Shown in pieces: positions 5,770 through 28,894 of a DNA stretch of 35,291 bases. Source of the DNA: Saprospirales bacterium (GTDB taxonomy: Bacteria; Bacteroidota; Bacteroidia; Chitinophagales; Saprospiraceae); contig RECS01000113.1 of the NCBI GenBank assembly GCA_007693915.1, forward strand, positions 1 through 35,291, in the 5' to 3' direction. Below the pieces are notes generated by a model, which was not told the origin of the DNA, made no database searches, and saw only the letters and a list, made by a program, of their open reading frames with translations. The stretch's first letter is position 1; every line of letters starts with the position of its first letter. Position numbers and translations under genes: made by a program.

Positions 5770-7181
5770 ATGAAAGATTTATTTTATACGGCAAGGGTCG
5801 GATTGGTGGCAATGATTCTATGTTTTTTAGTGTAACCCATATTTACCCAAAATCCCAAGGGTAGTTGGAAAGGGGTACTAAAGGTGATGGGACAGGAAAT
5901 CCGATTGGTTTTTCATTTTGAAGGGGAAGGTGAAAGTCGGAAGGCTACCATGGACAGCCCTGATCAGGGAGTCAATGGAATTGGCGTAGATGAAGTAAGA
6001 GTCAATAATAGTGAAATTGAGTTGAAAATTTTCGCAGCTGGAATCACTTATTCCGGTCAAATCAAAGTTAACGAAATTGTTGGCACTTTCAAACAAAGTG
6101 GTTTGGAATTGCCATTGAAGTTGGAAAAAATGTCAGAAGGGGAGGAAGTTACTAAGATTGAAGGGAAAATCAAAGTGCGTCCTCAGGATCCCGAACAACC
6201 TATTCCCTATAAAGAGGAAATCCTCGGATTTTATAATCGAGATGAAGATATTCGGCTTGAGGGTACATTGACTATCCCTGAAGGGGAGGGTCCTTTTCCA
6301 CTTGTTGTATTGATAACGGGAAGTGGTCCTCATGACAGGAATTCGGAGATATTAGGACACCGACCATTTCTTGTAATAGCCGATTATTTGAGTCGCCATG
6401 GAATAGCTGTATTTCGTTATGATGAGCGCGGTGTGGGTGTATCTGAGGGGGATTTTTCAAAAGCGACCACTGCTGATTTTGCGGCAGATGCCAAAGCTGC
6501 TATAGAGATGCTTAATGAGCACCCGGCCATTTATGCCAATAAGCCGGAATCGCAGGTCATAGTGAAGGTGGATTGGTGGCACCCATGGTAGCCGTTAGAA
6601 CAGATGCTGTGAACTTTTTGATAATGATGGCGGCAAGTGGTGTCAGAGGTGATCAATTGTTGTTGGAGCAAAAAAAACAAATTGAACTTCAAATGGGTTT
6701 TGATTCCTCCATGGTGATGGAGTCTCTTGCTTATTTTGGAAATGCATATCAGTTGATTGTGGAGGGCAAACTGGAGGGAACTGAGCTAAAAGAGGCTGTG
6801 GGCGAAGCATTAAGGCCCGTACTTGGACCTAATGTGCCAGAAGCTCAATTTGAGGCATTAATTTCTCAATTGCTCAACCCATGGATGGTGTTTTTCATGC
6901 GTCATGATCCTGCTTCGGTACTCAAGCAAGTCCAATGTCCAGTTTTGGCATTTAATGGTGATTTGGATCTGCAGGTATCGGCTGAGATCAACTTACCCGC
7001 AATCGAGCAGGCTCTGATTGAGAGCGGAAATGAACAGGTAAAAACTTATGTATTTAAGGAACTGAATCACCTTTTTCAAACTGCTCAAACCGGATTACCT
7101 GCTGAGTACGAATCTATAGAAGAGACCTTTGCTCCCAAAGTGCTGGAACTGATGGTAGAGTGGATTATGGGTTTGGAGTAA
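5770..7181 (+). pseudogene. Secreted alpha/beta hydrolase, broken by a nonsense codon and a frameshift
   Basis: The coding sequence starts at the ATG at 5770 with a signal peptide (MKDLFYTARVGLVAMILC...). It then hits TAA at 5833-5835 and continues in the same frame as PIFTQNPKGSWKGVLKV, the expected mature start, so one base change (for example TCA to TAA) explains the stop. A beta-rich N-terminal domain follows, then the oxyanion region LVVLITGSGPHDRNSE and FRYDERGVG. Near 6541-6545 one base is missing. The next frame supplies AGIAGHSEGGLVAPMVAV, with the nucleophile Ser codon at 6561-6563. Asp (GDLDLQV, codon 6966-6968) and His (ELNHLFQ, codon 7068-7070) follow, so the triad is intact but split. 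Two independent lesions argue for a true pseudogene rather than a single sequencing error. Products starting at the internal GTG 5884 or TTG 6573 would each lack half the fold. Confidence 0.87.
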
Positions 7182-10788: not shown

Positions 10789-13700
10789 TTAGGGTTCGTA
10801 GGACTCAATAGCAACAATAGCAAACTCTTCCGAAATAAAAACATATTTTCCAGCCAAAGCCGGTGCCATCCTTCCGGCTGTCCGTTGTTGCGTAATTATG
10901 TATGGCACATCAAAATAAAAGTCTTGGAGATTAGTCTGTCTGTAGCAAAAATGTGCTTCAGAAAAATCACCTCCATCATTTTGACAGGTGGTTACCTGAA
11001 CAGCTTCATATTCACTAGTCCTAAGATTTAGCGCATGGGTACCACGAAAATTTTGCCTCATCCATAAATAATCTCCACCCACGCTTAGACCATACAAGTT
11101 ATCTGTTTCAATTTGCCAGATATTGGCTAGTTGGCCATTATCAATAATAACTCTATAACCTGTCTCCGGATCTATACCTGCAATATCAATAGTAAAATCT
11201 GTACCGAAAATAGGTGACTCAACAGTGATATATGGAAACTTGGTTTTCCACCATCTGAGAATTCGCCCTTCATTATCAATAACAGGAGAGGGGGACGGAT
11301 AACCAACTCCATCAACCGGACCTGCCGGTATTAAAAACCGGTTTTGAAGCGTTTCAGTGTCTAACGCAAAAACATGTTGCCAATCCTGTGAAGCATCAGA
11401 CCAACGACCATTGTTATCATCCCCTTGTAACCATCTTTTAATAAACTCCTCCTCTTCCTCTAAACTATTTGCATCTGCAAGGACTTCATCCATGACATAT
11501 TCACTACCTGCCATAGGGATAGCCATGGTTGTTACATATAAAGTTCCCTCATAGAGCACCGGATGACACAACCTGAAACTCTGACCAATTACCTTTTCCC
11601 GGGCTTGAATATTCCCATTAGTAATATCTAATGCGTAAACATTCATGTCCTCTGCAGGTATATATATAAAGTCTTCTGATGCTGCGATTCCACCAACTAT
11701 CGGTACATCTAAGTTTGCGACCCAGTTAATTAACCCTAAAGTATCAATCTTGTAAACATTTCCTTTATGATTGGTAACTATCAGGGAATTTTCAACAACT
11801 AATGGTGCTGTTGTCATTGCTCCCCGAGTATCAACTACCCATGACCTATCACCTGTAAGTGTATCTAGAGCATATACATGTCCATTAACTGTTGTAAAAA
11901 TCACCAAATTATTAAGGACTGCAGCACTGACTATGCATGGAGCACCTAGGTCATTAGCCCAAAGTGTCGTACCATCATTAATATCTAAAGCGTAAGCGTT
12001 GCCCTCCATAGTAGAGAAATAGAGTCTCTCTCCTTTAATTACAGGTTGAACACTACCGGAAATAGTAAAGCCTACAGAGTCAGGAATAGGAAATGAATAT
12101 CCCGGGCGACTTGTCAAATCATCGGACCATCCATCCTCGCTTTCCATATTGCGAAGAGTAAGATCAGGTCCAACCCAAATCCATCGAGGTCGATAAGGTG
12201 GAGGCAAATTAATATGGCTTCTTCCGTGCCTTTTACTATTTTGCTGGAATTGCGGCCAGTCTGTTATATTCACAGGTTCTTCCTGCAGTTCAATATTGAA
12301 CGTTTTAAAGGCAAGATCACGTATTAAGTCTTCAACCTCAATCACTAAAACACCATCATTGGAAATTTGAACCGTATCCGTAAACAAAGCAACTGTATCT
12401 CCTGTCCACGGCCTCCAATATTCAACAATTGTCGAGCCTGCTGAAAGATCATGAATCTCCAAAACCTCGCTCTGTGGTGTTGGCACGCCATGGTTTAAAA
12501 CTCTTTTCCATGTATGATCTCGATTTTGAATCCAAAAGTGGCTTGCTCTACCTTCAAATCCGATTTGTCCCCAAATCCGCAACTTATCATTAGTGTTACT
12601 TACATTAATTGGCTTATAATTCCCCCGGTGTAATTCAATCTCCTTCATAAAAGCCTGATAAGTGGAGTACCTAAAATAAAGGTCATTGCTCCTTATATTA
12701 TCAGCATTCCATATTAAACCGGAAACTCCACCATGGTTAATATGACCCCAGATAAAATTATGCAACCAAATACCTGAAGTATCTAAAGTAAGCATTGGAT
12801 CAGGATCCTGACTACCAGGCACATCCAAATCTGTCTCTCCCCAAATAACCGGTTTATTCCTTAATTCATCAGTTCCAACCGTGACAGAGTAGGCGTATAC
12901 AGCTGCAGCAGCATCGTTTTTCAAATCTTCCCTATTATAAAATATCCCATCAATAGTAATCGTATCAATCCAACCGGTAGTCATTATATAAGCGTGAATA
13001 TCACCATAATCAGCCCTTGAATCACTCCAGTATTCAGGTTCCCAATTCGACCAAAAGGAAGTACTCACCATTCGATGAAAAGGTGAATTCGTTTGAAAAA
13101 ACTCTGAAAGATGATTTAATAATTCAAAGTAAGAACGAGGGGCACCTTCGTTAACCAGTTCCCAGGAATGTACCGATGTGGCATAACCCCAACGAGCAAT
13201 AAGATACCTCCAGTAATATTCATATAGCGTCCTAAGTGCTGAATCATCAGTCTGATCAAAATTTCCATGAGTAGAGCTCACAAAACCAGCTTTATCAATA
13301 TGATTGCTAATGAAGTCTCCTTTTTCATGAATAACAATTTTATAGTAAACATCTTGATTATGAGCCTGATCTATTAAAAAATCAGCTTCTTTACTCTTAA
13401 TGGGATCTAGATAAAGGTGTGAGTTGGCATTCCATTTTGACAAGATATTTGCTTTAAGGCCTCCATCAGGTTTGATTTCCTGCAGAGTCATTTGATCAAG
13501 AAATGCTTCTCCTGTACAATTTTCTAGAACCAAATAAATATAATCAAGTGTATGTTGTCCTGGTTGAGTTTCAATAATAGCAGTTAAATAGGACCAATCA
13601 TTATTTCCTCGCATATAAGCCGAAATAGTTTGCCCAATATCTGGTTGAATGACCTCTTCTCCCAGCCAATCCCCATACTTAATAACTAATCCACCAGCGC

Positions 13701-15591
13701 CCTCTACATTTACTGTTTTTACCCTGGCAATAAGAAGGTAACTGCTATTTTCTTCAACCTGAATTGGGCCGTCCCAAAACCCTCTGAATATAGCAGGTGT
13801 ATTTTCATTTTCTATAGGAGGACTTGCAATGCGGTAAGAAAATTGTCCATTTGCGTATTTTTGATTTGTTGTCAGGAGAGGAGGAGGCATATAGCCATTA
13901 TTCTCCATAGGATGATGTGTAGCCCATGAAGACCAAGAATCAGAAAAAGGAGATTGAGATGAGAGCCAAAATCGACTAAAATTGATTCCATTATCTTTCC
14001 ATAAATTAATTTCATTTACCATTTGGTCAGGATTAGAAGGATTGGTTCCGAAACCTAAAGGAAAAAAAAGGTGCCCATTGTCAAATTCAAAATAACGATT
14101 ATCCGACGAGGAAACCTTTATGAAACCCTTAGCCGTAAAATCTTGTAATACCACAACAGAAGGACCGGGAAATTCTCTACGTCCTCCGGCATCTTCAGCA
14201 ATAATAGTACTCGTCCACATTCCTTTATCTTTAAAAGCCATTCGGACCTGCCAATTGTATTCAGCAGTGGGTATAAGATAATTAGACTTTTGTTCATAAT
14301 TCTGAGCGTAAAATGCAGGTTGAATTAGCGTTTTTTCCCCATTAGAAAAGACTACATCAACACTTACACCACTACCAGGATCTACTCCCGGAAAATTAAA
14401 ATCATGATAAGGAAAAAATAAATTATCCGCAATTGTTGTCAGATCAAATTGAATATCAACTCTTTCATATTGAAGGACTGTAGTTTTCTTTACTTCAATA
14501 TTTTGAACGATGGGACCATTATATCCGGCGGGAAAATAATCAACCCGAATTTCATCTTTAACAAATCCCCCAGCGCCATCAGCTGATTGAATCTGAATGA
14601 TATTTAAACCTGGTTTCAGATAGATATCTTCAACAACAAAAATGGAATCTTCCGAGAGAATATGACCACTTTGCAAGGTTTTTTCATTTATCCAAAACAA
14701 TTTTCCCTCCCCGCCGATAACTTCACCTGTCAGAGAAATACTATCCTGATCAGTTTGGAAGTTCATGCCATTGTAAACAGGGTCTGTGATTTTAATTTGG
14801 TGTGAATTATCCCCGATAGCTTCTATCTGAAAAACCCTGCTGTCAATTGCTCCACCATCATCTACAATAGTGATAATGAGTTCGTATTTACCTGAAAAAA
14901 AATAGGTATGGGAAAAGTGTGAACTTCCTGTATAAACTGCTCCGTCACCGGTTTTTATCACGTAATTCTCAATAACACCATCCGGATCGTGAGCTGAGAT
15001 ATGACCGTTTACATTAAAAGGTACTACACCCGATAGAGAATTTAAGTGGATTTCATCAATAACAGGTGGCTCATTAATATCACTCTCGTCAAATAGAGTT
15101 ATTTCATCAAAACTAAAATCAACATCCCAGTCTGATCCCCCAAAAAATCCAATCTGAATTCGAATTTGGTCATTGATGGGAGTAAAACTAATAATCTCAT
15201 TAAACCAAATACCTCTTGGTCTATTATCTATGGTATAAAAGTCTGAAACATACCACTCCGACCAATCCTCTTCAATTGCCGAAAATCGAATACCCCCCCA
15301 ATCGTCTCCACTCATTTCATTTATTCTAATCCAGGCACTCAACCTATAGCTTGCCCCAGCTTCTAAACTCACAGGCCATTGCTCTAAAGTCCCCCTAACT
15401 TGAAATCGAGCTGAGTTTGTCCCATTATGGACATACTCTTCATCCAGGAAAATAAAATTCCCCCACCCTGACCAACTATCCGTCCCATCATCAAAATTCC
15501 CATTTTGCAATAGGTTTCCTGACTGAGAACTTAAACAGATAGAAAAACCAATAAAGAAAAAAAGAATAGAAAGGTGTTTTAAAGTTACCAT
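10789..15591 (-). CDS. Giant secreted multimodular protein: clan-A-like glycoside hydrolase fused to PQQ-type beta-propeller
   Basis: About 1600 residues from the ATG at 15591 (MVTLKHLSILFFFIGFSICL signal peptide). Modules in order: a jelly-roll carbohydrate-binding-like domain (about 25-170), a PKD-like domain (about 175-260), an Ig-like domain (about 265-350), a DUF5060-like domain (about 360-485), then a TIM-barrel glycoside hydrolase resembling GH5-like enzymes (about 490-985). A second jelly-roll (about 580-705) appears inserted into the barrel. WELVNEG (Glu815) fits an acid/base and VIWGETD (Glu919) a nucleophile, as in clan GH-A. A beta-sandwich follows, then a PQQ-like propeller (about 1110-1598) with blades such as GNAYALDINDGTTLW and GHVYALDTLTGD. 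No T9SS sorting domain is present at the end (VAIESYEP), unlike its neighbours. It is followed 7 bases on by another secreted-protein gene. The substrate is unknown, presumably a polysaccharide. Confidence 0.85.
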   Translation of the reverse strand: MVTLKHLSILFFFIGFSICLSSQSGNLLQNGNFDDGTDSWSGWGNFIFLDEEYVHNGTNSARFQVRGTLEQWPVSLEAGASYRLSAWIRINEMSGDDWGGIRFSAIEEDWSEWYVSDFYTIDNRPRGIWFNEIISFTPINDQIRIQIGFFGGSDWDVDFSFDEITLFDESDINEPPVIDEIHLNSLSGVVPFNVNGHISAHDPDGVIENYVIKTGDGAVYTGSSHFSHTYFFSGKYELIITIVDDGGAIDSRVFQIEAIGDNSHQIKITDPVYNGMNFQTDQDSISLTGEVIGGEGKLFWINEKTLQSGHILSEDSIFVVEDIYLKPGLNIIQIQSADGAGGFVKDEIRVDYFPAGYNGPIVQNIEVKKTTVLQYERVDIQFDLTTIADNLFFPYHDFNFPGVDPGSGVSVDVVFSNGEKTLIQPAFYAQNYEQKSNYLIPTAEYNWQVRMAFKDKGMWTSTIIAEDAGGRREFPGPSVVVLQDFTAKGFIKVSSSDNRYFEFDNGHLFFPLGFGTNPSNPDQMVNEINLWKDNGINFSRFWLSSQSPFSDSWSSWATHHPMENNGYMPPPLLTTNQKYANGQFSYRIASPPIENENTPAIFRGFWDGPIQVEENSSYLLIARVKTVNVEGAGGLVIKYGDWLGEEVIQPDIGQTISAYMRGNNDWSYLTAIIETQPGQHTLDYIYLVLENCTGEAFLDQMTLQEIKPDGGLKANILSKWNANSHLYLDPIKSKEADFLIDQAHNQDVYYKIVIHEKGDFISNHIDKAGFVSSTHGNFDQTDDSALRTLYEYYWRYLIARWGYATSVHSWELVNEGAPRSYFELLNHLSEFFQTNSPFHRMVSTSFWSNWEPEYWSDSRADYGDIHAYIMTTGWIDTITIDGIFYNREDLKNDAAAAVYAYSVTVGTDELRNKPVIWGETDLDVPGSQDPDPMLTLDTSGIWLHNFIWGHINHGGVSGLIWNADNIRSNDLYFRYSTYQAFMKEIELHRGNYKPINVSNTNDKLRIWGQIGFEGRASHFWIQNRDHTWKRVLNHGVPTPQSEVLEIHDLSAGSTIVEYWRPWTGDTVALFTDTVQISNDGVLVIEVEDLIRDLAFKTFNIELQEEPVNITDWPQFQQNSKRHGRSHINLPPPYRPRWIWVGPDLTLRNMESEDGWSDDLTSRPGYSFPIPDSVGFTISGSVQPVIKGERLYFSTMEGNAYALDINDGTTLWANDLGAPCIVSAAVLNNLVIFTTVNGHVYALDTLTGDRSWVVDTRGAMTTAPLVVENSLIVTNHKGNVYKIDTLGLINWVANLDVPIVGGIAASEDFIYIPAEDMNVYALDITNGNIQAREKVIGQSFRLCHPVLYEGTLYVTTMAIPMAGSEYVMDEVLADANSLEEEEEFIKRWLQGDDNNGRWSDASQDWQHVFALDTETLQNRFLIPAGPVDGVGYPSPSPVIDNEGRILRWWKTKFPYITVESPIFGTDFTIDIAGIDPETGYRVIIDNGQLANIWQIETDNLYGLSVGGDYLWMRQNFRGTHALNLRTSEYEAVQVTTCQNDGGDFSEAHFCYRQTNLQDFYFDVPYIITQQRTAGRMAPALAGKYVFISEEFAIVAIESYEP

Positions 15592-15967: not shown

Positions 15968-17000
15968 TCAGCGAAGTGCAATTAATTTCTTGAATAAACC
16001 CTGATATACAAAGGCTTTTGAGAGTTCATAATAGATTCTTCTTTTGGTGATTTTGATTGTTGCTCCTACCTTCAGTAAATATGTTCTGATGGAGCAAACT
16101 TGCCATTTTTCAGCTGTCTTGTGCCCGACTTCCTTGATTTCATCCTTAATTATTCGCATAAATTCATACACAATCGAGCTTAGTAATAAGCGAAAAAAGT
16201 TTGATAAGAAACCGTGGTTAGATAGCCTGTCTGAAAAACACATGTTTTTTACTTCCTTAATCCTATTTTCGCTCCTATCACCTCTTTTAACGTAAAAATC
16301 GAAATAAATCTCTCTGGCTTTCTTACCTTCAATATTACTAACAAAATGTCGTGTATTTAAACCTCGTCCAGTGCTTTCTATTTTCGCATAACATTTTTGT
16401 GGTTTATGCCAGCTTTTGGCCTGATAACTATATCCAATAAAATGTTGATATTTTGTTCCTCGTTCTACATGTGTTCTGCGTACAGCATGCTCTACCCGTG
16501 ATACCTTTCTTTTCAATACCTCATTGCTAGCTATACCTGTAGCAAATATTAGATTATTTTCATCAGCCAATTTATAAAATGCGGGACCGCTAAAGCCACT
16601 ATCTGATCTAATGGTTATTTTAATGGAAGGATACTTTTGTCTTATCTTTGTTACAATACGCTTGAGAATACCGGTATACCATCTATTAGAATGACTATTC
16701 CCTGGTCTCAAGACGGGCAGTATAATCTGTCCAGTTTCCCCATCATGAAAAAACAACTCATTGTACATGAACTTTCCGTAAAAGCCATTGAATAACGATA
16801 ATTGTTGGTTACCATGAGTAGGTCACATGCTGTGGGTCACTATCATCAGGAATAAATTGGCTTATTCTTTTAATTATCCCGTATTTGCGTTCTATTTTTT
16901 CTAAATAAACAACTGCACCATCCGAACTAATTTCACTGGCTGAAAATTTTACGGAAACAGCTTGCTTACCTCGATAAAAAAGTGTATTTTTGTTCCTCAT
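15968..17000 (-). mobile_element. Defective IS1380-family insertion sequence, transposase with internal deletion
   Basis: The N-terminal part (ATG at 17000) reads through ISQFIPDDSDPQHVTYSW and then stops. The C-terminal part, in another frame, reads PTHGNQQLSLFNGFYGKFMY then NELFFHDGETGQIILPVLRP and continues to the stop at 15968, with IRSDSGFSG and KRGDRSENRIKE supplying the second and third catalytic acidic residues. IS1380 transposases are usually over 400 residues; about 100 residues between HVTYS and the D-P-T-H-G motif are missing. That segment should hold the first catalytic Asp. The junction is at 16812-16822 (plus strand CCATGAGTAGG). The frame is lost as well, so the element cannot move itself. 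A 12-bp inverted pair ATAATTGGGCTA (16999-17010) / TAGCCCAATTAT (17059-17070) flanks the start codon. Confidence 0.88.
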
Positions 17001-17070
17001 AATTGGGCTATTTAAATGTTTTTATACTTTTTTTTAACAACCTAAATATAAGCATTTTAGCCCAATTATT
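16999..17070. repeat. 12-bp inverted repeat upstream of the IS1380-type transposase
   Basis: ATAATTGGGCTA at 16999-17010 and its exact complement at 17059-17070, separated by 48 bases. It overlaps the transposase start codon. It could be part of the element's terminal or regulatory structure, or a transcription-blocking stem. The remaining bases to 17222 show no gene. Confidence 0.5.
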
Positions 17071-17222
17071 TTTATTTCATCATGAATTTTTCGGGTTAGA
17101 TACACCAATAAAGATTTACAGCATACTGTTGACCGCTTGTCCATCTTTTATAAACAAAATAAAATATTTCAATTTCTTTGTTGAACTATCAATAGTACCT
17201 ATTATTGTAATTGTCAAGAACT

Positions 17223-19169
17223 TTAATTTTTGATAATAAATTTTGTACTTGATCTGAATGTGTCACCAATTATGGTCATGATATACATATCCGGTGAGAA
17301 ATCCTCATTAAATAACATTTCTTCACTTTTAATGATTCCACTATTCATTAAAATGCCTAATTGGTTAAAAATCATGTATTTACTCCCTGTTACCTCCGAT
17401 GGAGTTTGCAACGTGAACTCTCCTGTAGAAACAGTTGGACGAAGCTCAATGTCACTCTTTTCAAAATCATTTATACCGGTTATTCGATCAATAAAAACTG
17501 TAGTTACGGCTGAGCACCCATTTGCATCTATAACTTCAACCACATAATTTCCTGCTTTTAAAGAAATTAAAGTAGGGTTATTTACCTCCGGAAAGTCAAC
17601 CCAATGATAGTTGTATGGGCTAGTGCCACCTTCAGCTGTTACTGTAGCGGATCCATTTGATTCATTATTCGTCTCTTCAGTAGAACTTGTTGTTAAAATA
17701 AGCTCAGGTGGTTCAGGGATTGTAATTGATTGTTGCACGCTATTATAAAAATCATCGAAAACTGTAACAGTATAATCACCTGCCGGAAGAAAATTCCTCA
17801 TTTTACTATTAATGGAACTATCTTCCCATTTAAAATCAAGGTTACCAAACCCTCCATCTGCAAAGACTTCCACAGATGCAGTATTATCCCCATAGCAAGC
17901 AATAGAATCTATTATTATTATCTCTGCGGTCATATGTACCTTATCACCTTGCTCAAGAATATAAAGATGCCCTCCATTGTCTTCTGTTATAATTAGATAA
18001 TCTCCGGATAAGGTCAAATTGCCGCCATATCTAAAAACTCCCTCAACTTGTTTTGTCTCTCTATCAACAATAACAGTTCGTTCATTAGAGCTGAAAACTA
18101 CTATACTTTCCGTCACAACCGGGTCAAACTGTCCATCATAATCTTCGTCAGACCAAATCAATTGTCCATCGGATGCAGATAGTTCCATTATCAAATTAGA
18201 GGTTCCTATAAATAGAGAATTACCCGCTAAGGCAGGCGTACTAGTAAACCAGCCAAAATCTATAGAACTAATACTCCAATTCATTTCATAAATATCCAAG
18301 TCCAGGGCAAAAATGAAATAATGATTAGTAAGTATAACCTGATTATTTAAAGTATCAATAACAGGGTTGCCATGTGCAGACCATCCTGACCATTGATATG
18401 GTAAATCATTTCTTGTTATGTGTTTTAATAATTCACCAGTTTCTATATCTAAAACACCGAAATCATCAGCATATCCATAAATTTTACCATCATATATTGC
18501 CGGATTCCAATTGTCAATATTATTGGTGCTTATGTCTTTCTTCCATTTTAAATCACCGTTGTATGCATCATAACAACCTATTGTTGATCTATAGCTACCC
18601 TCAACTATATAAATATTTCCATCAATTGCAACGGGGCCTGTGAAATCTGCCCATTGGATTGTGAAACCAGTAGACCATATCGTTGAACCATTTGTAGGAG
18701 AAAGGCAAACTAACTGACTGGATGAATGATTGCCAACCTGTAAATAAATATTACCATAAGCAAAACAAGGAGTACTTAAATCGCGGGTATTATTATATGT
18801 ATTCATCCAGATAACTTGCCCTGTTTCAATATCTCTGGCCCAAATTCTTGTTCTACTTGTGTAAATTATTTTGTTCCCTACAACAATAGCCCGGTTTAAA
18901 CCATCAATATTACCCACATTGTTAGCTATACTATTTTTCAAGGCAACCGGATAATTAAATCGGGAAGTGGGAGCGTAAGAAGTGTTATAATTATCCTTTC
19001 CATAAACATTCCAGTCATCTTCAGATTCTTCGATAATGGTAAAGTTAATATCCTCTCCGGCTGAAGGAATCTTACCAATTTCTTGTTGGATTGTTTCTAC
19101 ATGTGGATCTTGAGAAAATGCTAAAATTGGAATAAGTAGGAATGCGATACTAAAAAAAAAAGTTTTCAT
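17223..19169 (-). CDS. T9SS-secreted PQQ-type propeller protein with SprB-like repeats, short paralogue
   Basis: 648 residues from the ATG at 19169 (MKTFFFSIAFLLIPILAFSQ); this Met aligns with the start of the neighbouring long paralogue, so the ATG two codons upstream is not preferred. After signal peptide and about 20 residues similar to the long copies (DPHVETIQQEIGKIPSAGED), it jumps at FTIIEESEDDWNVYGKD to the position of residue 901 in the 1506-residue copies and matches them to the end without net length change. So it keeps only the propeller (about 50-410), two SprB-like repeats (about 415-560; IACYGDNTASVEVFADGG and ESNGSATVTAEGGTSPYNY) and the type A sorting domain (about 570-648). 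The VCBS-like and Ig-like N-terminal 850 residues are missing, in frame. An extracellular binding role is likely; the ligand is unknown. Confidence 0.87.
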   Translation of the reverse strand: MKTFFFSIAFLLIPILAFSQDPHVETIQQEIGKIPSAGEDINFTIIEESEDDWNVYGKDNYNTSYAPTSRFNYPVALKNSIANNVGNIDGLNRAIVVGNKIIYTSRTRIWARDIETGQVIWMNTYNNTRDLSTPCFAYGNIYLQVGNHSSSQLVCLSPTNGSTIWSTGFTIQWADFTGPVAIDGNIYIVEGSYRSTIGCYDAYNGDLKWKKDISTNNIDNWNPAIYDGKIYGYADDFGVLDIETGELLKHITRNDLPYQWSGWSAHGNPVIDTLNNQVILTNHYFIFALDLDIYEMNWSISSIDFGWFTSTPALAGNSLFIGTSNLIMELSASDGQLIWSDEDYDGQFDPVVTESIVVFSSNERTVIVDRETKQVEGVFRYGGNLTLSGDYLIITEDNGGHLYILEQGDKVHMTAEIIIIDSIACYGDNTASVEVFADGGFGNLDFKWEDSSINSKMRNFLPAGDYTVTVFDDFYNSVQQSITIPEPPELILTTSSTEETNNESNGSATVTAEGGTSPYNYHWVDFPEVNNPTLISLKAGNYVVEVIDANGCSAVTTVFIDRITGINDFEKSDIELRPTVSTGEFTLQTPSEVTGSKYMIFNQLGILMNSGIIKSEEMLFNEDFSPDMYIMTIIGDTFRSSTKFIIKN

Positions 19170-19241
19170 ATGCAAATAAGTTACAACTCTAAAAAAAAAT
19201 ATAATATTTACTTTTTTATGTTAAAATAAATAGCAGTCTAC

Positions 19242-19250
19242 CCCCTTCAA
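19242..19250 (-). promoter_or_regulatory. Shared upstream motif TTGAAGGGG, short paralogue
   Basis: The minus strand reads TTGAAGGGG 73 bases before the ATG. The same motif occurs as TTGAAGGGTG at 23873-23882 and TTGAAGGGG at 28625-28633 before the other two paralogues. A TATTkAtT element follows about 15-18 bases on, so this may be the -33 part of a promoter; the match is imperfect. Confidence 0.35.
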
Positions 19251-19280
19251 AATCACCCATTGGGACAATTATCCTGACCT

Positions 19281-22200
19281 CTAATTTATAATAATAAATT
19301 TTGTACTTAATCTCGATGTATCAGTAATTATGGTGATAATATAAAGATTCGGTGGCAAATTCTCGTTAAATAACATTTCTTCACTTTCAATGATTCCACT
19401 TTTTATATAAACACCTAATTGGTTGAAAATTATATATTTACTTCCTGATAAATCTGATGGAGATTGCAGAGTAAACTCTCCTGTAGAAATAGTTGGTCGC
19501 AGCTCAATATTATTCTTTTCAAAATCATTTGTCCCGGTTATTCGATCTACAACAACAGTAGTTAGGGCTGAACACCCATTAGCATCTATAACTTCAACAA
19601 TATAATTTCCTGCATTCAAAAATTGTATAGTAGGGGCAGAAAGTCCTGGATAATCAACCCAATGATAGTTGTATGGGCTAGTGCCACCTTCAGCTATTAC
19701 TGTGGCTGATCCATTCGATTCATTATTCGTCTCTTCCATAGAACTTGTTGTTAAAATAAGCTCAGGTGGTTCAGTTATAGTAATGGATTGTTCTACATTA
19801 TTTAAAAACATATCCGAAACTCTAACAGTATACTCGCCGGCCGGGAGAGAACTTCTAAGGTTACTATTGATGGCATTATCCTCCCATGTGTATTCAAGCT
19901 CACCAATTCCACCTTCTGAAATTACTTCAATTGATGCAGTATTACCTCCGTAGCAAGCAATAGAATCTAATATTATTATTTCTGCGGTCATATCTACCTT
20001 TTCACCTTGTTCCAGTATATAGAGCTGCCCTCCATCATGTTCTGCTATAATCAGATAATCACCTGACAAGGTCAAATGACCTCCTTTATTGAAGCCTCCT
20101 TCAATTTGTTTGGTTTTTCTATCAACAATAACAGTTCGTTGTTCAGAACTAAACACCACAATACTATCTGATACAACCGGGTCAAAATTTCCATTATAAT
20201 TCTCATTATACCAAATCAATTCTCCATTAGAGGCGGATAGTTCCATTATCATATTGGAGTTCCCTACAAATAGTGAATTACCTGATAATGCAGGTGTACT
20301 GTTAAACCAGCCGTAATCTGTAGAACTTATACTCCAATTGATTTCATAGGTATCCAGTTCCAGGGCAAAAATGTAATGGCGATTGGTAAGTATAATCTGA
20401 TTATTCACAGTATCAATAACAGGGTTGCCAAATGCAGACCATCCTGACCATTGAAATGGTAAATCATTTCTTGTTATATGTTTTAAGAATTCACCGGTTT
20501 CTAAATCCAAAACACCAAAATCATCAGCATATCCATAAATTTTGCCATCATGTATTGCCGGATTCCAATTGTCAAAATTATTGGTGCTTATGTCTTGCGT
20601 CCATTTTAATTTACCATTGTATGCATCATAACAACCTATTGTTGATCTATATCTACCTTCAATAATTAAAATATTCCCATCAACAGCTAAAGGACCTGTT
20701 AATTCTTGCCATTGAACCATGTAATCAGTAGCCCATATTAATGAACCATCTGAAAGGGAAAGGCAAACTAACTCGCTGTCAAGATGATTACCGATCTGCA
20801 AATAAATATTACCATAAGCAAAACAAGGTGTACTTAAAACATCCCTATTGCTATATGTATTTTGCCAGATAAGATCACCTGTTTCAAGGTCTCTAGCCCA
20901 AATTCTATTATTACTCGTAAAAATCACTTTGTTCTCTGCTACAATAGAACGGTTTAATCCATTATTTGGATGAATATTGTTAGCTATACTATTTTTTAAT
21001 GTTACTGGATAATTAAATCGCGAAGTGGGAGCGTAAGATGTGTTATAGGTATCATTCCCATAAATACTCCAATTGTCCATAGACTCTTCGATAATGGAAA
21101 AGCTGATACTATCAATTGCACTCCAATTTTCAGAACCATCTTGGGCAGCCAAATAAACAGTATGAGTTCCAATGTCTAATGCTAGGGAGTTTATATTAAT
21201 TTCAAAATCCTCAGTACTGGAATCAAGTTTGCCATCAAGACCGGGGACACTTATACCTGCACTAATACCCGATGCATCGTTTAATGAATAAAGTATTTTT
21301 TTAATATCGGAAATAACGCTATCATTGACATCAGAGGCAGTTCCTGAAATAGATATGAGTTGGCCCGGGAAAATTTCGCTCTTTGTTTTAAGATTGATAA
21401 AATAGGGGGGAATGTCATCAATCCCAGAGCCCATATTTAAAGTAAATGTAAACTCATCTTCATCTCCATCATAGATTCCATTCCTATTTCCATCAAGATT
21501 ATTTCCGGCTAAATCAGTTATTGTACTCGGAAGAAGTATAGATATGTTTTCATTTGGAGTCCAATTTGTACTTGGTTCTAACAATAGCGTTCGCTGATTA
21601 GAGCTTAGTTCAGCGGTGAATGATTGTATTATACCATTCTCACTAATTATTTCAATTCCATTTAGTGATAATGGCTCTATTTCTTCTGAAAAAGTTACTG
21701 AAATAGTAGTATTTGTTGCAAGCTTTTCTTTACCGGATGTTGGACTGTATTCTCTTATAAACGGCAGCGTCACATTCAGGAATTCTTCATTTATTCTGAT
21801 TCTTGCATATCCATATTGATGAGCTATTAATATATCCTTGTGTTTGTCCAAATTTATGTCAGCAACTGCAATGTCAGTAAGATTAATAGTGCTTTGATTG
21901 AGTTCTGATGGAAATGCATCAATTTCTGATAATATCAGATAACTCTCAGTATCATAAATGTAAAATTTATCTCCTAAAACTATCATTTCCGGCCTTGCCG
22001 TGCTGTCCAAATTTACATGTTTAACAACTCGAAGCGCAATCGATTTATTCAAGATATCAATCTCCTCGATTGTTTCATCTTCAATATCAATAAGCTGAAT
22101 ACTAGTTTTATTAGCATAATTTTGTCCCCCTATTACAAACGCATAGTTTCCATCCTGATTAAGATCTACAACGTCAAAGGCGTTGTGGTTTTGGTTGTAA

Positions 22201-23801
22201 TTAACAAAGATTTGTTTTATAAGCGAATCAGATTCTGTGTCATATAAAAAAATGGCATCATTATATAAGATGGCAACTTCTGTCGACTCATCAGTGTAAA
22301 AATTTCCAATTTTATACGATTTACATACATTATTTGATTGGGGAGATTCCCAAATCAAATTAATTTCACCATCAGTTATTGATAAAATAACAACTGTTCT
22401 GTTGTTTTTTATTCCGATAATACAAGGATCTCCTTTCTCTTCCAGCTGAATAAGCTGTATGCTGGAGAGGTTAAAATTAAAAATGTCTAATGATGCATAA
22501 ACTGAAGTAAATGTATTTTTGTAAACAGATATTTTTCTATTTCCCTCTTTGGTTAAATAATACGTATCATTATCTATGTGTAACGCAGCGATATCATTAA
22601 TAGCGGAAGAATTGTCTAGTAAAATTGAACCTTCAATAATCGAATCAGATATGCCATTGCGAATCTCTAAAAGTCCACCACTATTATTCGTGTTTGAGGA
22701 TCCACTGCAACTAACATAATTCATGTGTTCTCCATTATTTCTGTCAATTAATGCAATGAATGCCCGATTGGATTTCACTTGTGACATCCAATCAGTTGAT
22801 GATTCAATATCACTCACAACTAACTGATTGTCTGAAACATAAAACAAATTCCTATTTCCATCACCATTTAAATCATGTACCAACATACCTGAATTGTTTG
22901 ATCCGGGAGTTGGAATTTCCCAAAGTTCATTGCCGGTAGCTGGACTTCTTGCAGAAATGCCTGAACCAGTAGATAATAGCAGGAAACCAGTATGATTTCC
23001 GCTTGCTGATACGTACGAAAACCTTGTGTTTTGAAATGAGCCATTAACTGCCCAAATTTGGCTTTGAGCTTGAATATCAAAACACTTTAATGTATTTTGT
23101 CGTAAGCCATAAACTAATGACACTCTATTTTCGTCCGGGTTACCTAAGGTGATATGATTACCAAAATCACTAAAATACTTCCACTTCCTTTGGAAAGAGA
23201 ATAGATCCAGAATCTTACTTTCGAAAGATAGAGATAAAATAATATCAGTATTACCATCGTCAATAACTTCTCCGATTGTAAAATCTCTAATAGTTCCAAA
23301 ATTTTCTTGATTTAAAATGACTCCTTCTTGATTTATTAAAACCAAATCTAACAAAGTGCTTACTACAAAATAATTCATCGAATCAGTAGTGTAGATTTCA
23401 AATTTTCGGATATCCCTTGAAAAATTATCTTTTATCACTTCCACTAAATTAGTGATAGGATCGAAGCTTAATAATCGACGTGATTCAGCAATATAAATTT
23501 TATTTTCGATAGAATCATAGTCTATCCATATGATTTGAGAATTTGCAGGGTTTTCAATGCGATGTTCTCTATACCCATTTCCCTCTGCCTGTAAAAATTT
23601 TAAAAATGTATTAATTTGATTTCCAGTTGTAAAACCAACCTCTAATGTTCCATTTTTATTAAAATCACCAACAATAGTATTTCTCTGTCCTGTTGAAGAA
23701 ATATTATAAATTTCTTGGTAGATTAATTCTGCATAGGGGTCTTGAGAAAATGCTAAAATTGCATTGATTGAGAATAAAATACTAAAAATAAATGTTTTCA
23801 T
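19281..23801 (-). CDS. T9SS-secreted 1506-residue VCBS/Ig/PQQ-propeller/SprB-repeat protein, copy A
   Basis: Signal peptide MKTFIFSILFSINAILAFSQ (1-20). Residues about 21-680 form a repeated beta structure with calcium-type FG-GAP/VCBS motifs, for example GDFNKNGTLEVGF (45-57), HDLNGDGNRNLFYV (309-322), VDLNQDGNYAFV (545-556) and ADINLDKHKDILIA (647-660). An SbsA-type Ig-like domain (about 683-790) carries a D-x-D-G-N-R-N-G-I-Y-D-G-D-E acidic loop (770-782). A second Ig-like domain follows (about 795-903), then a PQQ-like propeller (about 908-1267; DLETGDLIWQNTY, DAYNGKLKW), two SprB-like repeats (about 1270-1345 and 1350-1420) and a T9SS type A sorting domain (1430-1506). It is likely displayed on or released from the cell surface. 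Related SprB proteins act in gliding adhesion, but a binding or polymer-capture role here is only inference. Confidence 0.9.
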   Translation of the reverse strand: MKTFIFSILFSINAILAFSQDPYAELIYQEIYNISSTGQRNTIVGDFNKNGTLEVGFTTGNQINTFLKFLQAEGNGYREHRIENPANSQIIWIDYDSIENKIYIAESRRLLSFDPITNLVEVIKDNFSRDIRKFEIYTTDSMNYFVVSTLLDLVLINQEGVILNQENFGTIRDFTIGEVIDDGNTDIILSLSFESKILDLFSFQRKWKYFSDFGNHITLGNPDENRVSLVYGLRQNTLKCFDIQAQSQIWAVNGSFQNTRFSYVSASGNHTGFLLLSTGSGISARSPATGNELWEIPTPGSNNSGMLVHDLNGDGNRNLFYVSDNQLVVSDIESSTDWMSQVKSNRAFIALIDRNNGEHMNYVSCSGSSNTNNSGGLLEIRNGISDSIIEGSILLDNSSAINDIAALHIDNDTYYLTKEGNRKISVYKNTFTSVYASLDIFNFNLSSIQLIQLEEKGDPCIIGIKNNRTVVILSITDGEINLIWESPQSNNVCKSYKIGNFYTDESTEVAILYNDAIFLYDTESDSLIKQIFVNYNQNHNAFDVVDLNQDGNYAFVIGGQNYANKTSIQLIDIEDETIEEIDILNKSIALRVVKHVNLDSTARPEMIVLGDKFYIYDTESYLILSEIDAFPSELNQSTINLTDIAVADINLDKHKDILIAHQYGYARIRINEEFLNVTLPFIREYSPTSGKEKLATNTTISVTFSEEIEPLSLNGIEIISENGIIQSFTAELSSNQRTLLLEPSTNWTPNENISILLPSTITDLAGNNLDGNRNGIYDGDEDEFTFTLNMGSGIDDIPPYFINLKTKSEIFPGQLISISGTASDVNDSVISDIKKILYSLNDASGISAGISVPGLDGKLDSSTEDFEININSLALDIGTHTVYLAAQDGSENWSAIDSISFSIIEESMDNWSIYGNDTYNTSYAPTSRFNYPVTLKNSIANNIHPNNGLNRSIVAENKVIFTSNNRIWARDLETGDLIWQNTYSNRDVLSTPCFAYGNIYLQIGNHLDSELVCLSLSDGSLIWATDYMVQWQELTGPLAVDGNILIIEGRYRSTIGCYDAYNGKLKWTQDISTNNFDNWNPAIHDGKIYGYADDFGVLDLETGEFLKHITRNDLPFQWSGWSAFGNPVIDTVNNQIILTNRHYIFALELDTYEINWSISSTDYGWFNSTPALSGNSLFVGNSNMIMELSASNGELIWYNENYNGNFDPVVSDSIVVFSSEQRTVIVDRKTKQIEGGFNKGGHLTLSGDYLIIAEHDGGQLYILEQGEKVDMTAEIIILDSIACYGGNTASIEVISEGGIGELEYTWEDNAINSNLRSSLPAGEYTVRVSDMFLNNVEQSITITEPPELILTTSSMEETNNESNGSATVIAEGGTSPYNYHWVDYPGLSAPTIQFLNAGNYIVEVIDANGCSALTTVVVDRITGTNDFEKNNIELRPTISTGEFTLQSPSDLSGSKYIIFNQLGVYIKSGIIESEEMLFNENLPPNLYIITIITDTSRLSTKFIIIN

Positions 23802-23872
23802 ATGTAAATAAGTTACAACTCTACAAAAAGATACATCATTAACTTTTTCATGCTAAAATCAATACCAGCTTA

Positions 23873-23882
23873 CACCCTTCAA
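23873..23882 (-). promoter_or_regulatory. Shared upstream motif TTGAAGGGTG, copy A
   Basis: Minus-strand TTGAAGGGTG lies 73 bases before the ATG at 23801, the same spacing as before the short paralogue. Further upstream (23935-23942) is AATATTTG, 7 of 8 to the -7 consensus, an alternative start site. Confidence 0.35.
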
Positions 23883-24021
23883 AATCTTTAAAATCTCACT
23901 TTTCATTTCAGGTTCTGATGTCAAAAAAACTTAGCAAATATTTTAGTATTTAAATAAATTCATGGCTCTCAATCGCTTATTACTTTTTCAAAGTCACTCA
24001 TTGGAATTATTATCCTGACCT

Positions 24022-27000
24022 TTAATTTTTAATAATGAATTTTGCACTTGATCTTGAGGTGTCAGAAATTATGGTGAAAATATATAGATTCGGTGGCAAA
24101 TTCTCGTTAAACAAAATTTCTTCACTTTCAATGATACCACTTTTTATTAAAATGCCTAATTGGTTAAAAATCATATATTTACTTCCAGTCACATCCGGTG
24201 GAGTTTGCAGGATAAACTCTCCTGTAGAAACAGTTGGTCGCAGCTCAATGTTATACCTCTCGAGATCATTTGTGCTGGTTATTCCATCAACATTAACAGT
24301 GGTTACAGCTGAGCACCCATTGGCATCTATAACTTCAACAAAATAATTTCCTGCTTCCAAATAATTTATGGTAGGAACAGAAAGTCCTGGAAAATCAGCC
24401 CAAACGTAGATGTAAGGTCTAGTGCCTCCTTCAGCTATTACTGTGGCTGATCCATTCGATTCATTATTCGTCTCTTCAATAGAACTTGTTGTTAAAATAA
24501 GCTCAGGTGGTTCAGTTATAGTAATAGATTGTTCTACATTATTTAAAAACATATCCAAAACTCTAACAGTATACTCCCCGGCCGGGAGAGAACTTCTAAG
24601 GTTACTATTGATGGCACTATCCTCCCAATTGAATTCAAGCTCACCAATTCCACCTTCTGCAATTACTTCAATTGATGCAGTATTATCTCCATAGCAAACA
24701 ATAGAATCTAATATCATTATCTCGGCTGCCATAGGTACCTTTTCACCTTGTTCCAGTATATAAAGCTGCCCTCCATTATGTTCTGCTATAATCAGATAAT
24801 CCCCAGATAAGGTTAAATGACCTCCTTTATTAAATCCTCCTTCAACTTGTTTGGTTTTTCTATCAACAACAACAGTTCGATTATTAGAACTAAATGCCAC
24901 AATACTATCTGATACAACCGGATCAAAATTGCAATTGAAATCTTCATTATACCAAATCAATTCTCCATCAGAGGCAGATAGTTCCATAATTAAATTAGAG
25001 TTTCCTACGAATAGTGAATTACCTGATAATGCCGGCGTACTATTAAACAAACCGTAATCTGTAAAACTAATACTCCAATTAATCTCATAAGTATCCAAAT
25101 CCAAGGCAAACATGAATTGTCGATTAGTTAGTACAATCTGATTATTTACAGTATCAATAACAGGGTTGCCAATTCCAGACCATCCCCACCAATGATATGG
25201 TAAATCATCACTTGTTATGTGTTTTAATAATTCACCTGTTTGCAGGTCTATAACACCGAAATTATCAGCATGTCCATAAATTTTTCCGTCATATATTGCC
25301 GGATTCCAATTATCAAAATTATTGGTACTGATGTCTTGAGTCCAGTTTAAATTACCGTTATATGCATCATAACTACTTATTATTGTCCAGGAATAACCTT
25401 CAACAATAATAATGCTACCATCAGCTGCCAATATACCAGGTAAGTCTGATTTTTGGACTGAATAATTAGTAGACCATATCGTTAAACCATTTGTAGGAGA
25501 AAGGCAAACTATCTGGCTTGATGAACGATCGCCAATCTGCAAATAAATATTACCATAAGCAAAACAGGGAGTGCTTAAACTTTGCCTATTATTATATGTA
25601 TTCTTCCAAATAAGTTCGCCTGTTTCAAGGTCTCTAGCCCAAATTCGGTTATTACTGGTAAAAATTACTTTGTTCTCTACTATAATAGAGCGGTTTAACC
25701 CATCAAAAACATCAACCTCATGAGTTATACTATTTTTTAGTGATACTGGATAATTAAATCGGGAAGCGGGGGCGTAAGATGTATTATAGGTATCCTTGCC
25801 ATAAACACTCCAATTGTCCACAGACTCTTCGATAATGGTAAAGCTGATACTATCAACTTCACTCCAATTTTCAGCAAAATCTTGCGTAGCCAAATACACA
25901 GCATGAGTGCCAAGATCTAATGCTACAGAGCTTATATTAATTTCAAAATCCTCAGTACTGGAATCAAATTTGCCATCAGTACCGGGGACACTTATTCCTT
26001 CACTAATAACTGAGGCATCGTTTAATGAATAGAGTATTTTTTTAATATCGGATATAACACTATCATTGACATCAGTGGCAGTTCCTGAAATAGATATGAG
26101 TTGCCCCGGGAAAATTTCGCTCTTTGTTTTAAGATTGATAAAATAGGGGGGAATGTCATCAATCCCAGAGCCCATATTTAAAGTAAATGTAAACTCATCT
26201 TCATCTCCATCATAGATTCCATTCCTATTTCCATCAAGATTATTTCCGGCTAAATCAGTTATTGTACTCGGGAGAAGTATAGATATGTTTTCATTTGCAG
26301 TCCAATTCGTACTTGGATCTAACAATAGGGTTCGCTGATTAGAGCTTAGTTCAGCGGTGAATGATTGTATTATACCACTCTCACTAATTATTTCAATTCC
26401 ATTTAGTGAGGATGGCTCTATTTCTTCTGAAAAAATTACTGAAATCGTGGTATTTGTTGCAAGTTTTTCTTTACCGGATGGTGGTCTGTATTCCCTTATA
26501 AACGGCAGCGTAACATTCAGGAATTCTTCATTTATTCTTATTCTTGCATATCCATATTGATGAGCTATTAATATATCCTTGTGTTTGTCTAAATCTAAGT
26601 CAGCAACTGCAATGTCAGTAAGATTAATAGGGGTATGATGGGGTTCTAGGGGAAATGCATTAATTTCTGATAATATCAGATAACTCTCAGTGTCATATAT
26701 GTAAAATTTATCTCCTAAAACTATCATTTCCGGTCTAGCCGTGCTGTCCAGATTTTCATGATAAATTACTTGAAGCGCAATCGATTTATCTAGAATGTCA
26801 ATCTCTTCGATTGCTTCATCTTCAATATCGATAAGCTGAATACTAGTTTTATTAGCATAATTTTGTCCTCCTATTACAAACGCATAGTTTCCATCCTGGT
26901 TAAGATCTACAACATCAAAGGCATTGTGGTTTTGGTTGTAATTAACAAAGATTTGTTTTATAAGTAAATTAGATTTTATGTCATACAAAATAATAGCATT

Positions 27001-28542
27001 ATTATATAGGATGGCAACTTCTATCGATTCATCGGAGTAAAAATTTCCAATCTTATACGATTTACATACATTATCTGTCTGAGGGGATTCCCAAATTAAA
27101 TTGATGCCACCATCAGTTATTGAAAAAATAACAACTGTTCTGTTTTTATTTATTCCGATAATACAAGGATCTCCATTTTCTTCCAGCTGAATAAGCTGTA
27201 TGCTTGTGAGGTTAAAATCAAAATCGTCTAATGACGCATAAACTGAAGTAAATGTATTTTTGTAAACAGATATTTTTCTACTACCTTCTCTGGTTAGATA
27301 ATACGTATCATTATCAATGTGTAAAGCAGCGATGTCATTAATAGTTGAAAAATTATCTAGTAAAATCGGACCTTCAATAATCGAATCAGATTTGCCGCTA
27401 CGAATCTCTAAAAGTCCACCACTATTATTTGTGTTTGAGGAACCACTACAGTTAACATAATTAATGTAATCTCCATCATTTTTATTAATTAAAGCTATGA
27501 ATGCCCGATTGGATTTTACTTGTGACATCCAATCAGTTGATGATTCAATATCCCTCACAACCAACCGATTGTCTGAAACATAAAACAAATTCCTATTTCC
27601 ATCACCATTTAAATCGTGAAACAACGTACTAGAATTGTTTGATCCGGAAGTTGGAATTTGCCAAATTTCATTGCCGGTAACAGGATTTCTTGCAGAAATA
27701 GCTGAATTCGTAGATAAAAGTATTAAGGCATTATCATTTCCGCTTGATGGTACGTACGAAAATCTTCTGTTTTGAAATGATCCTTCAATAGTCCACATTT
27801 CGCTTTGAGCTTGAACATTAAAACATGTTAAATTACTATAGTTTATTCCATAAATTAACGACAATCCGTTTTGACCCGGTTCGGACAGATAAATATTATT
27901 ACCAAAAACACCAGAATATTCCCATTTAATTTGAAAAGAGAAAAGATCTAAAATTTTACTTCCTGAAGATTGAGAGACAATAATCTCTTTATCACTTTTA
28001 TCATAAACATTCCCAATAGCAAAATCACGAAAACCTCCAAAATTTCCTTGATTTAAGATGGTTCCTTCTTGATTTATCAATAACAAATCAGAGGAAGCCC
28101 TAACCACAAAATAATTCATTGAATCAGTAGTGTAGATTTCAAATTTATTGATATCCCTTGAAAAGTTATCTTTTATCACTTCCACTGAATTAGTGATAGG
28201 GTCGAAGCTTAATAAACGACGTGATTCAGCAATATAAATTTTATTTTCGATAGAATCATAGTCTATCCAAAGGATTGGAGAATTTGCAGGGGTTTCAATG
28301 CGATGTTCTCTATATCCATTTCCCTCTGCCTGTAAAAATTTTAAAAATGTATTAATTTGATTTCCAGTTGTAAATGCTACCTCTATTGTTCCATTTTTAT
28401 CAAAATCACCAACAATAGTATTTCTCTGTCCAGGTGAAGAAATATTATAAATTTCTTGATGGATTAATTCTGCATAGGGGGCTTGAGAAAATACTGAAAC
28501 TGAAATAAGGAAGAATAAAATACTAAAAAACTTTGTCATCAT
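24022..28542 (-). CDS. T9SS-secreted 1506-residue VCBS/Ig/PQQ-propeller/SprB-repeat protein, copy B
   Basis: Same length and module order as copy A: signal peptide MMTKFFSILFFLISVSVFSQ, VCBS-like N-terminal region, SbsA-type and second Ig-like domains, PQQ-like propeller, two SprB-like repeats (IVCYGDNTASIEVIAEGG; ESNGSATVIAEGGTRPYIY) and a type A sorting domain ending SSAKFIIKN. By hand alignment, residues 21-147 are about 91% identical to copy A, 148-280 only about 57%, and 691-840 about 96%. It is the first gene of the array in transcription order, with the clearest promoter upstream (28673-28680). The start ATG at 28542 is one codon before a second Met; either could be used. Confidence 0.9.
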   Translation of the reverse strand: MMTKFFSILFFLISVSVFSQAPYAELIHQEIYNISSPGQRNTIVGDFDKNGTIEVAFTTGNQINTFLKFLQAEGNGYREHRIETPANSPILWIDYDSIENKIYIAESRRLLSFDPITNSVEVIKDNFSRDINKFEIYTTDSMNYFVVRASSDLLLINQEGTILNQGNFGGFRDFAIGNVYDKSDKEIIVSQSSGSKILDLFSFQIKWEYSGVFGNNIYLSEPGQNGLSLIYGINYSNLTCFNVQAQSEMWTIEGSFQNRRFSYVPSSGNDNALILLSTNSAISARNPVTGNEIWQIPTSGSNNSSTLFHDLNGDGNRNLFYVSDNRLVVRDIESSTDWMSQVKSNRAFIALINKNDGDYINYVNCSGSSNTNNSGGLLEIRSGKSDSIIEGPILLDNFSTINDIAALHIDNDTYYLTREGSRKISVYKNTFTSVYASLDDFDFNLTSIQLIQLEENGDPCIIGINKNRTVVIFSITDGGINLIWESPQTDNVCKSYKIGNFYSDESIEVAILYNNAIILYDIKSNLLIKQIFVNYNQNHNAFDVVDLNQDGNYAFVIGGQNYANKTSIQLIDIEDEAIEEIDILDKSIALQVIYHENLDSTARPEMIVLGDKFYIYDTESYLILSEINAFPLEPHHTPINLTDIAVADLDLDKHKDILIAHQYGYARIRINEEFLNVTLPFIREYRPPSGKEKLATNTTISVIFSEEIEPSSLNGIEIISESGIIQSFTAELSSNQRTLLLDPSTNWTANENISILLPSTITDLAGNNLDGNRNGIYDGDEDEFTFTLNMGSGIDDIPPYFINLKTKSEIFPGQLISISGTATDVNDSVISDIKKILYSLNDASVISEGISVPGTDGKFDSSTEDFEINISSVALDLGTHAVYLATQDFAENWSEVDSISFTIIEESVDNWSVYGKDTYNTSYAPASRFNYPVSLKNSITHEVDVFDGLNRSIIVENKVIFTSNNRIWARDLETGELIWKNTYNNRQSLSTPCFAYGNIYLQIGDRSSSQIVCLSPTNGLTIWSTNYSVQKSDLPGILAADGSIIIVEGYSWTIISSYDAYNGNLNWTQDISTNNFDNWNPAIYDGKIYGHADNFGVIDLQTGELLKHITSDDLPYHWWGWSGIGNPVIDTVNNQIVLTNRQFMFALDLDTYEINWSISFTDYGLFNSTPALSGNSLFVGNSNLIMELSASDGELIWYNEDFNCNFDPVVSDSIVAFSSNNRTVVVDRKTKQVEGGFNKGGHLTLSGDYLIIAEHNGGQLYILEQGEKVPMAAEIMILDSIVCYGDNTASIEVIAEGGIGELEFNWEDSAINSNLRSSLPAGEYTVRVLDMFLNNVEQSITITEPPELILTTSSIEETNNESNGSATVIAEGGTRPYIYVWADFPGLSVPTINYLEAGNYFVEVIDANGCSAVTTVNVDGITSTNDLERYNIELRPTVSTGEFILQTPPDVTGSKYMIFNQLGILIKSGIIESEEILFNENLPPNLYIFTIISDTSRSSAKFIIKN

Positions 28543-28624
28543 GTGTAAAGTAATTACAAATTTAATAAAAATTATATAGAAACTTCATAAACATCTTTAT
28601 CTAGCATCAATAATCAGTCCAATC

Positions 28625-28633
28625 CCCCTTCAA
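28625..28633 (-). promoter_or_regulatory. Shared upstream motif TTGAAGGGG, copy B
   Basis: Third occurrence of the leader motif, 83 bases before the ATG at 28542 and about 40 bases downstream of the predicted promoter, so here it would lie in the transcribed leader. Confidence 0.3.
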
Positions 28634-28662
28634 ACAATTTGCAATTTCCTTCTTTCGCACAA

Positions 28663-28885: not shown

Positions 28886-28894
28886 GGTCTGGAT

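Follow-up and report, generated by a model that had tools for sequence, protein, structure and literature searches.

A GH-A-like enzyme joined to a PQQ-type propeller in a Saprospirales bacterium: probable fusion within a three-protein set

The locus and the domains of P0001

The stretch of DNA analysed here, called the window below, comprises positions 1 to 35,291 of contig RECS01000113.1 of a Saprospirales bacterium (assembly GCA_007693915.1). Its minus strand carries an open reading frame of 1600 amino acids without internal stop (P0001, 10789..15591), starting with an ATG at 15591 and with a stop codon ending at 10789. The frame had been given with its start at 15591 in a preliminary description of this DNA and is borne out here, as is the numbering there of Glu815 (in WELVNEG) and Glu919 (in WGETD). 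In a search of its own genome (E 1e-5) P0001 was the only match to the whole protein.

The N-terminus of P0001 (residues 1-23, 15523..15591; all features of P0001 and P0002 lie on the minus strand) is hydrophobic by inspection and resembles a signal peptide in sequence and hydropathy; no good lipobox was seen by eye. It is followed by a CBM_4_9 module (residues 24-168, 15088..15522; PF02018, 34.8 bits against a Pfam cut-off of 25.9, best stretch 25-93) and a PKD domain (PKD_4, residues 173-257, 14821..15075; PF18911, 29.3 bits, cut-off 27). Residues 262-353 (14533..14808), which show 26-42% identity in an alignment with 6 orthologs, are possibly Ig-like. The domain order suggested earlier, namely CBM, PKD, Ig, DUF5060-like, interrupted barrel and propeller, was largely right, but the Pfam scan gave no family match for the "Ig" segment.

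The next domain, a DUF5060-like beta-sandwich (residues 356-485, 14137..14526), reached 16.9 bits with PF16586. This is below the cut-off of 27.2, but the assignment made in the preliminary description is backed by the alignment of the domain with the N-domain of a DUF5060-type mannanase, both by sequence profile and in a structural model (VIA, Z 9.1). The GH-A-like barrel that follows consists of a first part (residues 486-545, 13957..14136), identified by a profile match to the same mannanase, ManDH5, and a catalytic part (residues 713-985, 12637..13455) with E815 at 13147-13149 and E919 at 12835-12837. A C-terminal beta domain (residues 986-1100, 12292..12636; 24-29% identity to 4 orthologs), which aligns with the end of ManDH5, completes the enzyme.

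P0001 matched none of the glycoside hydrolase families in Pfam or NCBIfam. For Cellulase (PF00150) neither the whole protein at E 1 nor the core at E 10 gave a match, and because the cut-off of this family was not reached P0001 is not filed as GH5 proper. With phmmer, the core matched the PDB entries 9gmj and 9gpc. Both are ManDH5, a GH5 beta-D-mannanase of Dictyoglomus thermophilum, 9gpc being the E303Q mutant according to the Foldseek listing. A profile built from seven orthologs matched 9gmj with an E-value of 7e-40 (hmmsearch) in three stretches: one spans the DUF5060 domain and the beginning of the barrel, the next the first catalytic region, and the last the second catalytic region together with the C-terminal domain. 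E303 of ManDH5, the residue mutated in 9gpc, aligns with E815 of P0001. E815 is kept in 7/7 ortholog rows and E919 in all six rows reaching that far. Weaker profile matches were found to GH5 mannanases (E 0.0025-0.0033) and then to GH39 (E 0.0097). These alignments show a distant relationship between the catalytic part and ManDH5, and together with the conserved glutamates this likeness would most simply make P0001 a retaining enzyme that hydrolyses a beta-linked polysaccharide.

The AF2 model of the enzyme core, built on an alignment of four rows, was poor (mean pLDDT 39.5, the barrel part mostly below 50). Ten-residue means of pLDDT were 53-73 in stretches of the DUF5060-like domain and lower in others. 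Foldseek and VIA matches of this low-confidence model were used only for the two best-modelled domains, the DUF5060-like domain and the insert in the barrel; the many unrelated beta-sandwich proteins listed beside ManDH5 and CBM folds were ignored as background.

The insert occupies residues 546-712 (13456..13956, approximate limits). Between the first and the second matching stretch the profile has 238 positions compared to 79 residues in ManDH5, so that about 160 residues are inserted in the barrel of P0001. The interruption postulated in the preliminary description is thus borne out by the alignment; the binding-like fold of the inserted module is modelled at only moderate confidence (CBM-like beta-sandwich, ten-residue mean pLDDT 51-76). 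Residues 225-354 of the model matched CBM folds of families 16, 22 and 29 and a hyaluronan-binding module with Z 7.3-8.6, which is near background, as VIA itself cautions that Z 7-8 is common by chance and Z below 8 common. Comparison of the insert with the N-terminal CBM of P0001 itself gave a probability of 64-68% (hhalign). A Pfam scan of 4 insert fragments gave no CBM family over its cut-off and one match below it (19.2 against 27, in locus L011). Taken with its length and the model, the insert is probably a CBM-like binding module. Its identity to the orthologs (44-65%) is near that of the catalytic barrel part 713-985 (52-65%) and exceeds that of barrel residues 486-545 (36-50%), the N-terminal CBM (32-52%) and the DUF5060 domain (24-46%), for which reason we infer that it probably helps to form the substrate site. 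The substrate of the enzyme is worth measuring, since no Pfam glycoside hydrolase family was matched and the insert is about as conserved as the catalytic part.

Behind a linker of eight residues (1101-1108, 12268..12291), placed between the end of enzyme homology and the start of free propellers, P0001 ends in a complete PQQ-type, BamB-like propeller (residues 1109-1600, 10792..12267; PQQ_2, 66.6 bits, cut-off 27.6). At the linker the other two forward frames contain stops. With the PQQ model PF01011, whole P0001 reached 24.2 bits, below the cut-off of 26.7, and the propeller part alone 29.1. The propeller part matches four free-standing propellers end to end, and its C-terminus is level with theirs; the earlier statement that the protein ends inside the propeller is wrong. 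PQQ-dependent dehydrogenase was rejected as an identity (TIGR03075, 39.9 bits against 480).

The next gene, P0002 (8784..10781, likely ATG at 10781), starts 7 bp downstream of the fused gene; in its product a helical domain is followed by beta domains and, at the end, by a T9SS type A tail (Por_Secre_tail, 41 bits, Pfam cut-off 27). Upstream, 376 bp from the fused gene, lies a partial DDE transposase open reading frame (15968-16768, minus strand; PF13701, profile positions 170-427 of 435), possibly the scar of a rearrangement. Further upstream lie the genes of P0003-P0005 (17223-28542, minus strand), three related proteins that combine PQQ_2 propellers with SprB repeats and T9SS tails. On visual inspection P0004 and P0005, of 1506 amino acids, seem to be near-duplicates, and P0003 resembles their C-terminal part. 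T9SS signals were over the curated cut-off in P0002, P0003 and P0006 and under it in P0004 (18.7) and P0005 (22.5, both against 23). The claim that the neighbours all carry such signals thus holds for the five large secreted ones, but eight other scanned open reading frames gave no Pfam T9SS match at E 0.1. Two overlapping frames on the plus strand (5884-7181) with weak alpha/beta-hydrolase matches possibly represent a single frameshifted gene. The G+C content is 31-35% at about 16000-29000 of the window compared to 39-43% at both window ends.

Separate counterparts of enzyme and propeller

In another genome of the phylum, G292, the two halves of P0001 are encoded separately. The counterpart enzyme has the same domain order as the enzyme part of P0001 but ends in a T9SS type A tail, and 453 of 1142 aligned positions are identical between the two (BLAST). 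Upstream of it in the cluster are genes for a propeller protein of 503 amino acids, which begins with a signal-peptide-like stretch and in which no tail was detected, and for a helical protein of 597 amino acids with a tail. The propeller is identical to residues 1111-1596 of P0001 at 205 of 489 positions and the helical protein to P0002 at 138 of 364 (both BLAST). The gene order is propeller, helical protein, enzyme in G292 and fused enzyme-propeller, then helical protein in the window. The join, of about 8 residues, is at the place where the enzyme would have had its tail and the propeller its signal peptide. Free propellers were found as separate proteins of about 500 amino acids in four genomes with an unfused enzyme.

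We interpret P0001 as two fused partners from a set of three proteins, namely enzyme, propeller and helical protein, with a probability of about 0.8. The first partner would be a clan GH-A-type hydrolase of the retaining kind that has a CBM at its N-terminus and a module inserted further on. The second would be a propeller resembling BamB, whose start is signal-peptide-like and which lacks a T9SS tail in all five genomes seen. The third, the helical protein, has such a tail, and its gene adjoins that of the propeller. The lineage of the window has neither the tail of the enzyme nor the propeller's signal peptide, and enzyme and propeller are joined in frame, presumably by a change from separate to fused genes. 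The set probably degrades a carbohydrate.

A search of 395 genomes of the phylum revealed one strong relative beyond the window's own genome (G000), that of G292 (core identity 45%), and four weak ones; a search of the same size for the helical core matched 2 genomes, again G000 and G292. Among 396 genomes of the order 33 had an enzyme match, the strong ones being G000, G810 and G869 and the other 30 remote. In the order of G292 (164 genomes) 4 matched, with G292 and G1022 as the strong ones. The propeller profile matched 21 of 294 genomes of the class of G292. G292 itself scored 980 bits, and the other 20 gave partial matches of at most 83 bits over at most 175 of 494 positions. Whole P0001 had no match at 1e-10 in 7 further genomes of its genus. 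The distribution of the set is therefore patchy and hints at loss or transfer. No enzyme relatives turned up in viral contigs, phages or plasmids. Viral contigs gave no propeller match and plasmids only partial ones (38 records, none covering 80%), and the helical core was not found in plasmids.

A first scan of genome contigs with whole P0001 gave no match, and a second scan three loci (L010, L011, L012). L011 (Ignavibacterium sp. HOT.MB2.1) has the same cluster as G292 and is identical in sequence to contig C35 of G1022. L010 and L012 belong to two Bacteroidetes MAGs of 1.8 and 2.3 Mb. They contain closer enzymes (58% core identity) with genes running off the contigs, and because these genes are incomplete both were left out of the count. 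A complete enzyme gene is thus present in five genomes (G000, G292, G1022, G810 and G869) from three genera and two families, G292 and G1022 sharing one genus and G810 and G869 another; as evidence for the fusion and the trio they amount to no more than three lineages. The full-length propeller was found in all of the four genomes other than the window's own. G810 and G869 have the propeller gene immediately behind the helical gene, the two overlapping by 4 bases; in both genomes the enzyme lies on another contig, and no partner gene was seen beside the enzyme in the stretches read. The fused form occurs in one of the five genomes.

That the three genes are functionally unrelated and the fusion neutral appears unlikely. 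The separation of the enzyme from the propeller and helical genes in G810 and G869 would fit such an explanation, as would the MAGs of L010 and L012, where neither propeller nor helical core was found at E 1e-5, matches to P0002 being to its later domains. All three members are present, however, in 5/5 genomes with a complete enzyme (5/7 if the two MAGs are counted), spanning the three genera and two families at 33-44% identity between lineages. An assembly artefact or a truncated gene is very improbable: the one genome with the fused form is a draft assembly of 197 contigs and P0001 lies on one of these, but a single open frame crosses a clean domain boundary, the propeller matches free-standing orthologs at both ends, and the spacing between propeller and helical gene is 7 bp here compared to 10 and 8 bp in two other genomes.

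Gene fusions tend to join interacting proteins, and contact between propeller and enzyme would accordingly be expected. The fusion points to a trio of an enzyme, a tail-less propeller and a tailed helical protein, and joint action of propeller and enzyme would be predicted from it. For the helical protein, whose helical part was aligned in 5 genomes, many invariant W, D, E, R and Y positions would suit an enzyme. Its model had a pLDDT of 48.3, the best Foldseek match an E-value of 0.082 and the best PDB sequence match one of 0.48. Polysaccharide lyases were among its weak Foldseek matches and were left out of account. Neither the trio nor the enzyme-propeller architecture was seen described among the papers listed in the literature searches, and none of the papers listed for four of nine PDB codes dealt with P0001. 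Literature searches for DUF5060 led to vaginal Lactobacillus and those for a fused PQQ propeller and glycoside hydrolase to fungal AA12.

Export and location of the fused protein

The preliminary description had noted that P0001 lacks a sorting signal, and indeed no C-terminal sorting domain of type A, B or C was detected with Pfam and NCBIfam. The genome of the window has 127 T9SS tail matches at E 0.001 or better. T9SS models of Pfam and NCBIfam matched none of the five propellers (scanned at E 10 for three and at E 1 for those of G292 and the window, with an additional Pfam scan at E 10 for the window's propeller part). As none of the five has a detectable tail, the missing tail of P0001 is not a truncation. 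Truncation or frameshift as its cause was also rejected in view of the complete propeller and of the distance of 7 bp to the next gene. Fusion within a recurring trio, rather than a truncated protein, would explain the missing tail.

Where the fused protein ends up is a separate question. A passage of a review (PMC10202324) calls the CTD necessary and sufficient for T9SS export. Since by this rule the C-terminal signal is needed, the fused enzyme would most likely stay in the periplasm, to which we assign an even chance.

Export in trans is less probable but deserves consideration. Here, binding of the propeller to the helical protein would take place in the periplasm, and the T9SS tail of the latter would bring the complex across the outer membrane, in which case the fused enzyme could do without a tail of its own. 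The propeller gene or part adjoins the gene of the helical protein in 5/5 genomes, and the helical protein has a T9SS tail in all five (over the cut-off in 3). The unfused enzyme is tailed in 4/4 genomes, over the Pfam cut-off in 2; the tails of G810 and G869 are weak (19.6 and 17.1 bits against 27). Proteins that become fused are usually located in the same compartment. The N-terminal CBM and PKD domains of P0001 are retained at 31-53% identity. Furthermore, T9SS carries folded, very large cargo according to part of a published account (PMC9251779). Against export in trans stand the rule on the CTD just cited and the fact that none of the papers listed for piggyback T9SS export describes it, judged by title or abstract start. 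It is still more doubtful, though conceivable, that the propeller acts as an adaptor for T9SS export in trans, docking on the CTD-bearing helical protein and carrying along anything bound, or in this case fused, to it, which would bring an enzyme without a tail to the cell surface. If this were true, it would be a T9SS cargo complex in which the signal of one subunit serves the others. Whether every protein exported by T9SS needs its own C-terminal signal or can be carried by a partner thereby becomes testable.

There is little likelihood that the propeller itself is an unrecognised export or anchoring signal. It occupies the C-terminus where the unfused orthologs have their T9SS tail, and its best matching stretches with known propellers do not extend beyond about position 300 of 482. 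Its matches, however, are to BamB-like and designed propellers and to no T9SS signal model, and the three other PQQ propeller proteins of the window have T9SS tails of their own (one over and two under the cut-off).

Comparison with known enzymes and propellers

The propeller of P0001 resembles BamB and the PQQ_2 propellers in that the propeller fold is recognised by sequence (profile matches with E 1e-22 for BamB and E 6e-55 for a designed propeller). It differs from BamB, as the equivalog model TIGR03300 gave 77.5 bits compared to a cut-off of 285.2 and the best stretch of BamB covers about 120-155 of 482 positions. BamB proper was therefore rejected as its identity. The neighbours P0003-P0005 also have PQQ_2 propellers and signal-peptide-like starts but, unlike P0001, SprB repeats and their own T9SS tails. 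A derivation of the P0001 propeller from these neighbours is not supported (no BLAST match at E 1e-3).

DUF5060-GH proteins of the same bacterial family share a GH-A-like core with P0001, and their DUF5060 domain exceeds the cut-off. A T9SS tail was present in all three examined, in one below the cut-off. They are remote from the P0001 enzyme (best match 56 bits), give no CBM_4_9 or PKD match, and one of them (L080) has no insert, since it matches ManDH5 over equal lengths. Another combination of propeller and glycoside hydrolase was observed in genome G894 (L081:4858-8664), where FG-GAP repeats and ASPIC/UnbV precede a DUF5060-GH core with a T9SS tail.

ManDH5 (PDB 9gmj, 9gpa, 9gpc) is like the P0001 enzyme in its N-terminal DUF5060-type domain, both glutamates and the C-terminal beta domain. 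It differs in being a chain of 568 amino acids without the insert, with 16-23% identity in the model alignments, and its substrate is for these reasons not transferable to P0001. A mannan-like substrate would be a guess, with the odds somewhat against it.
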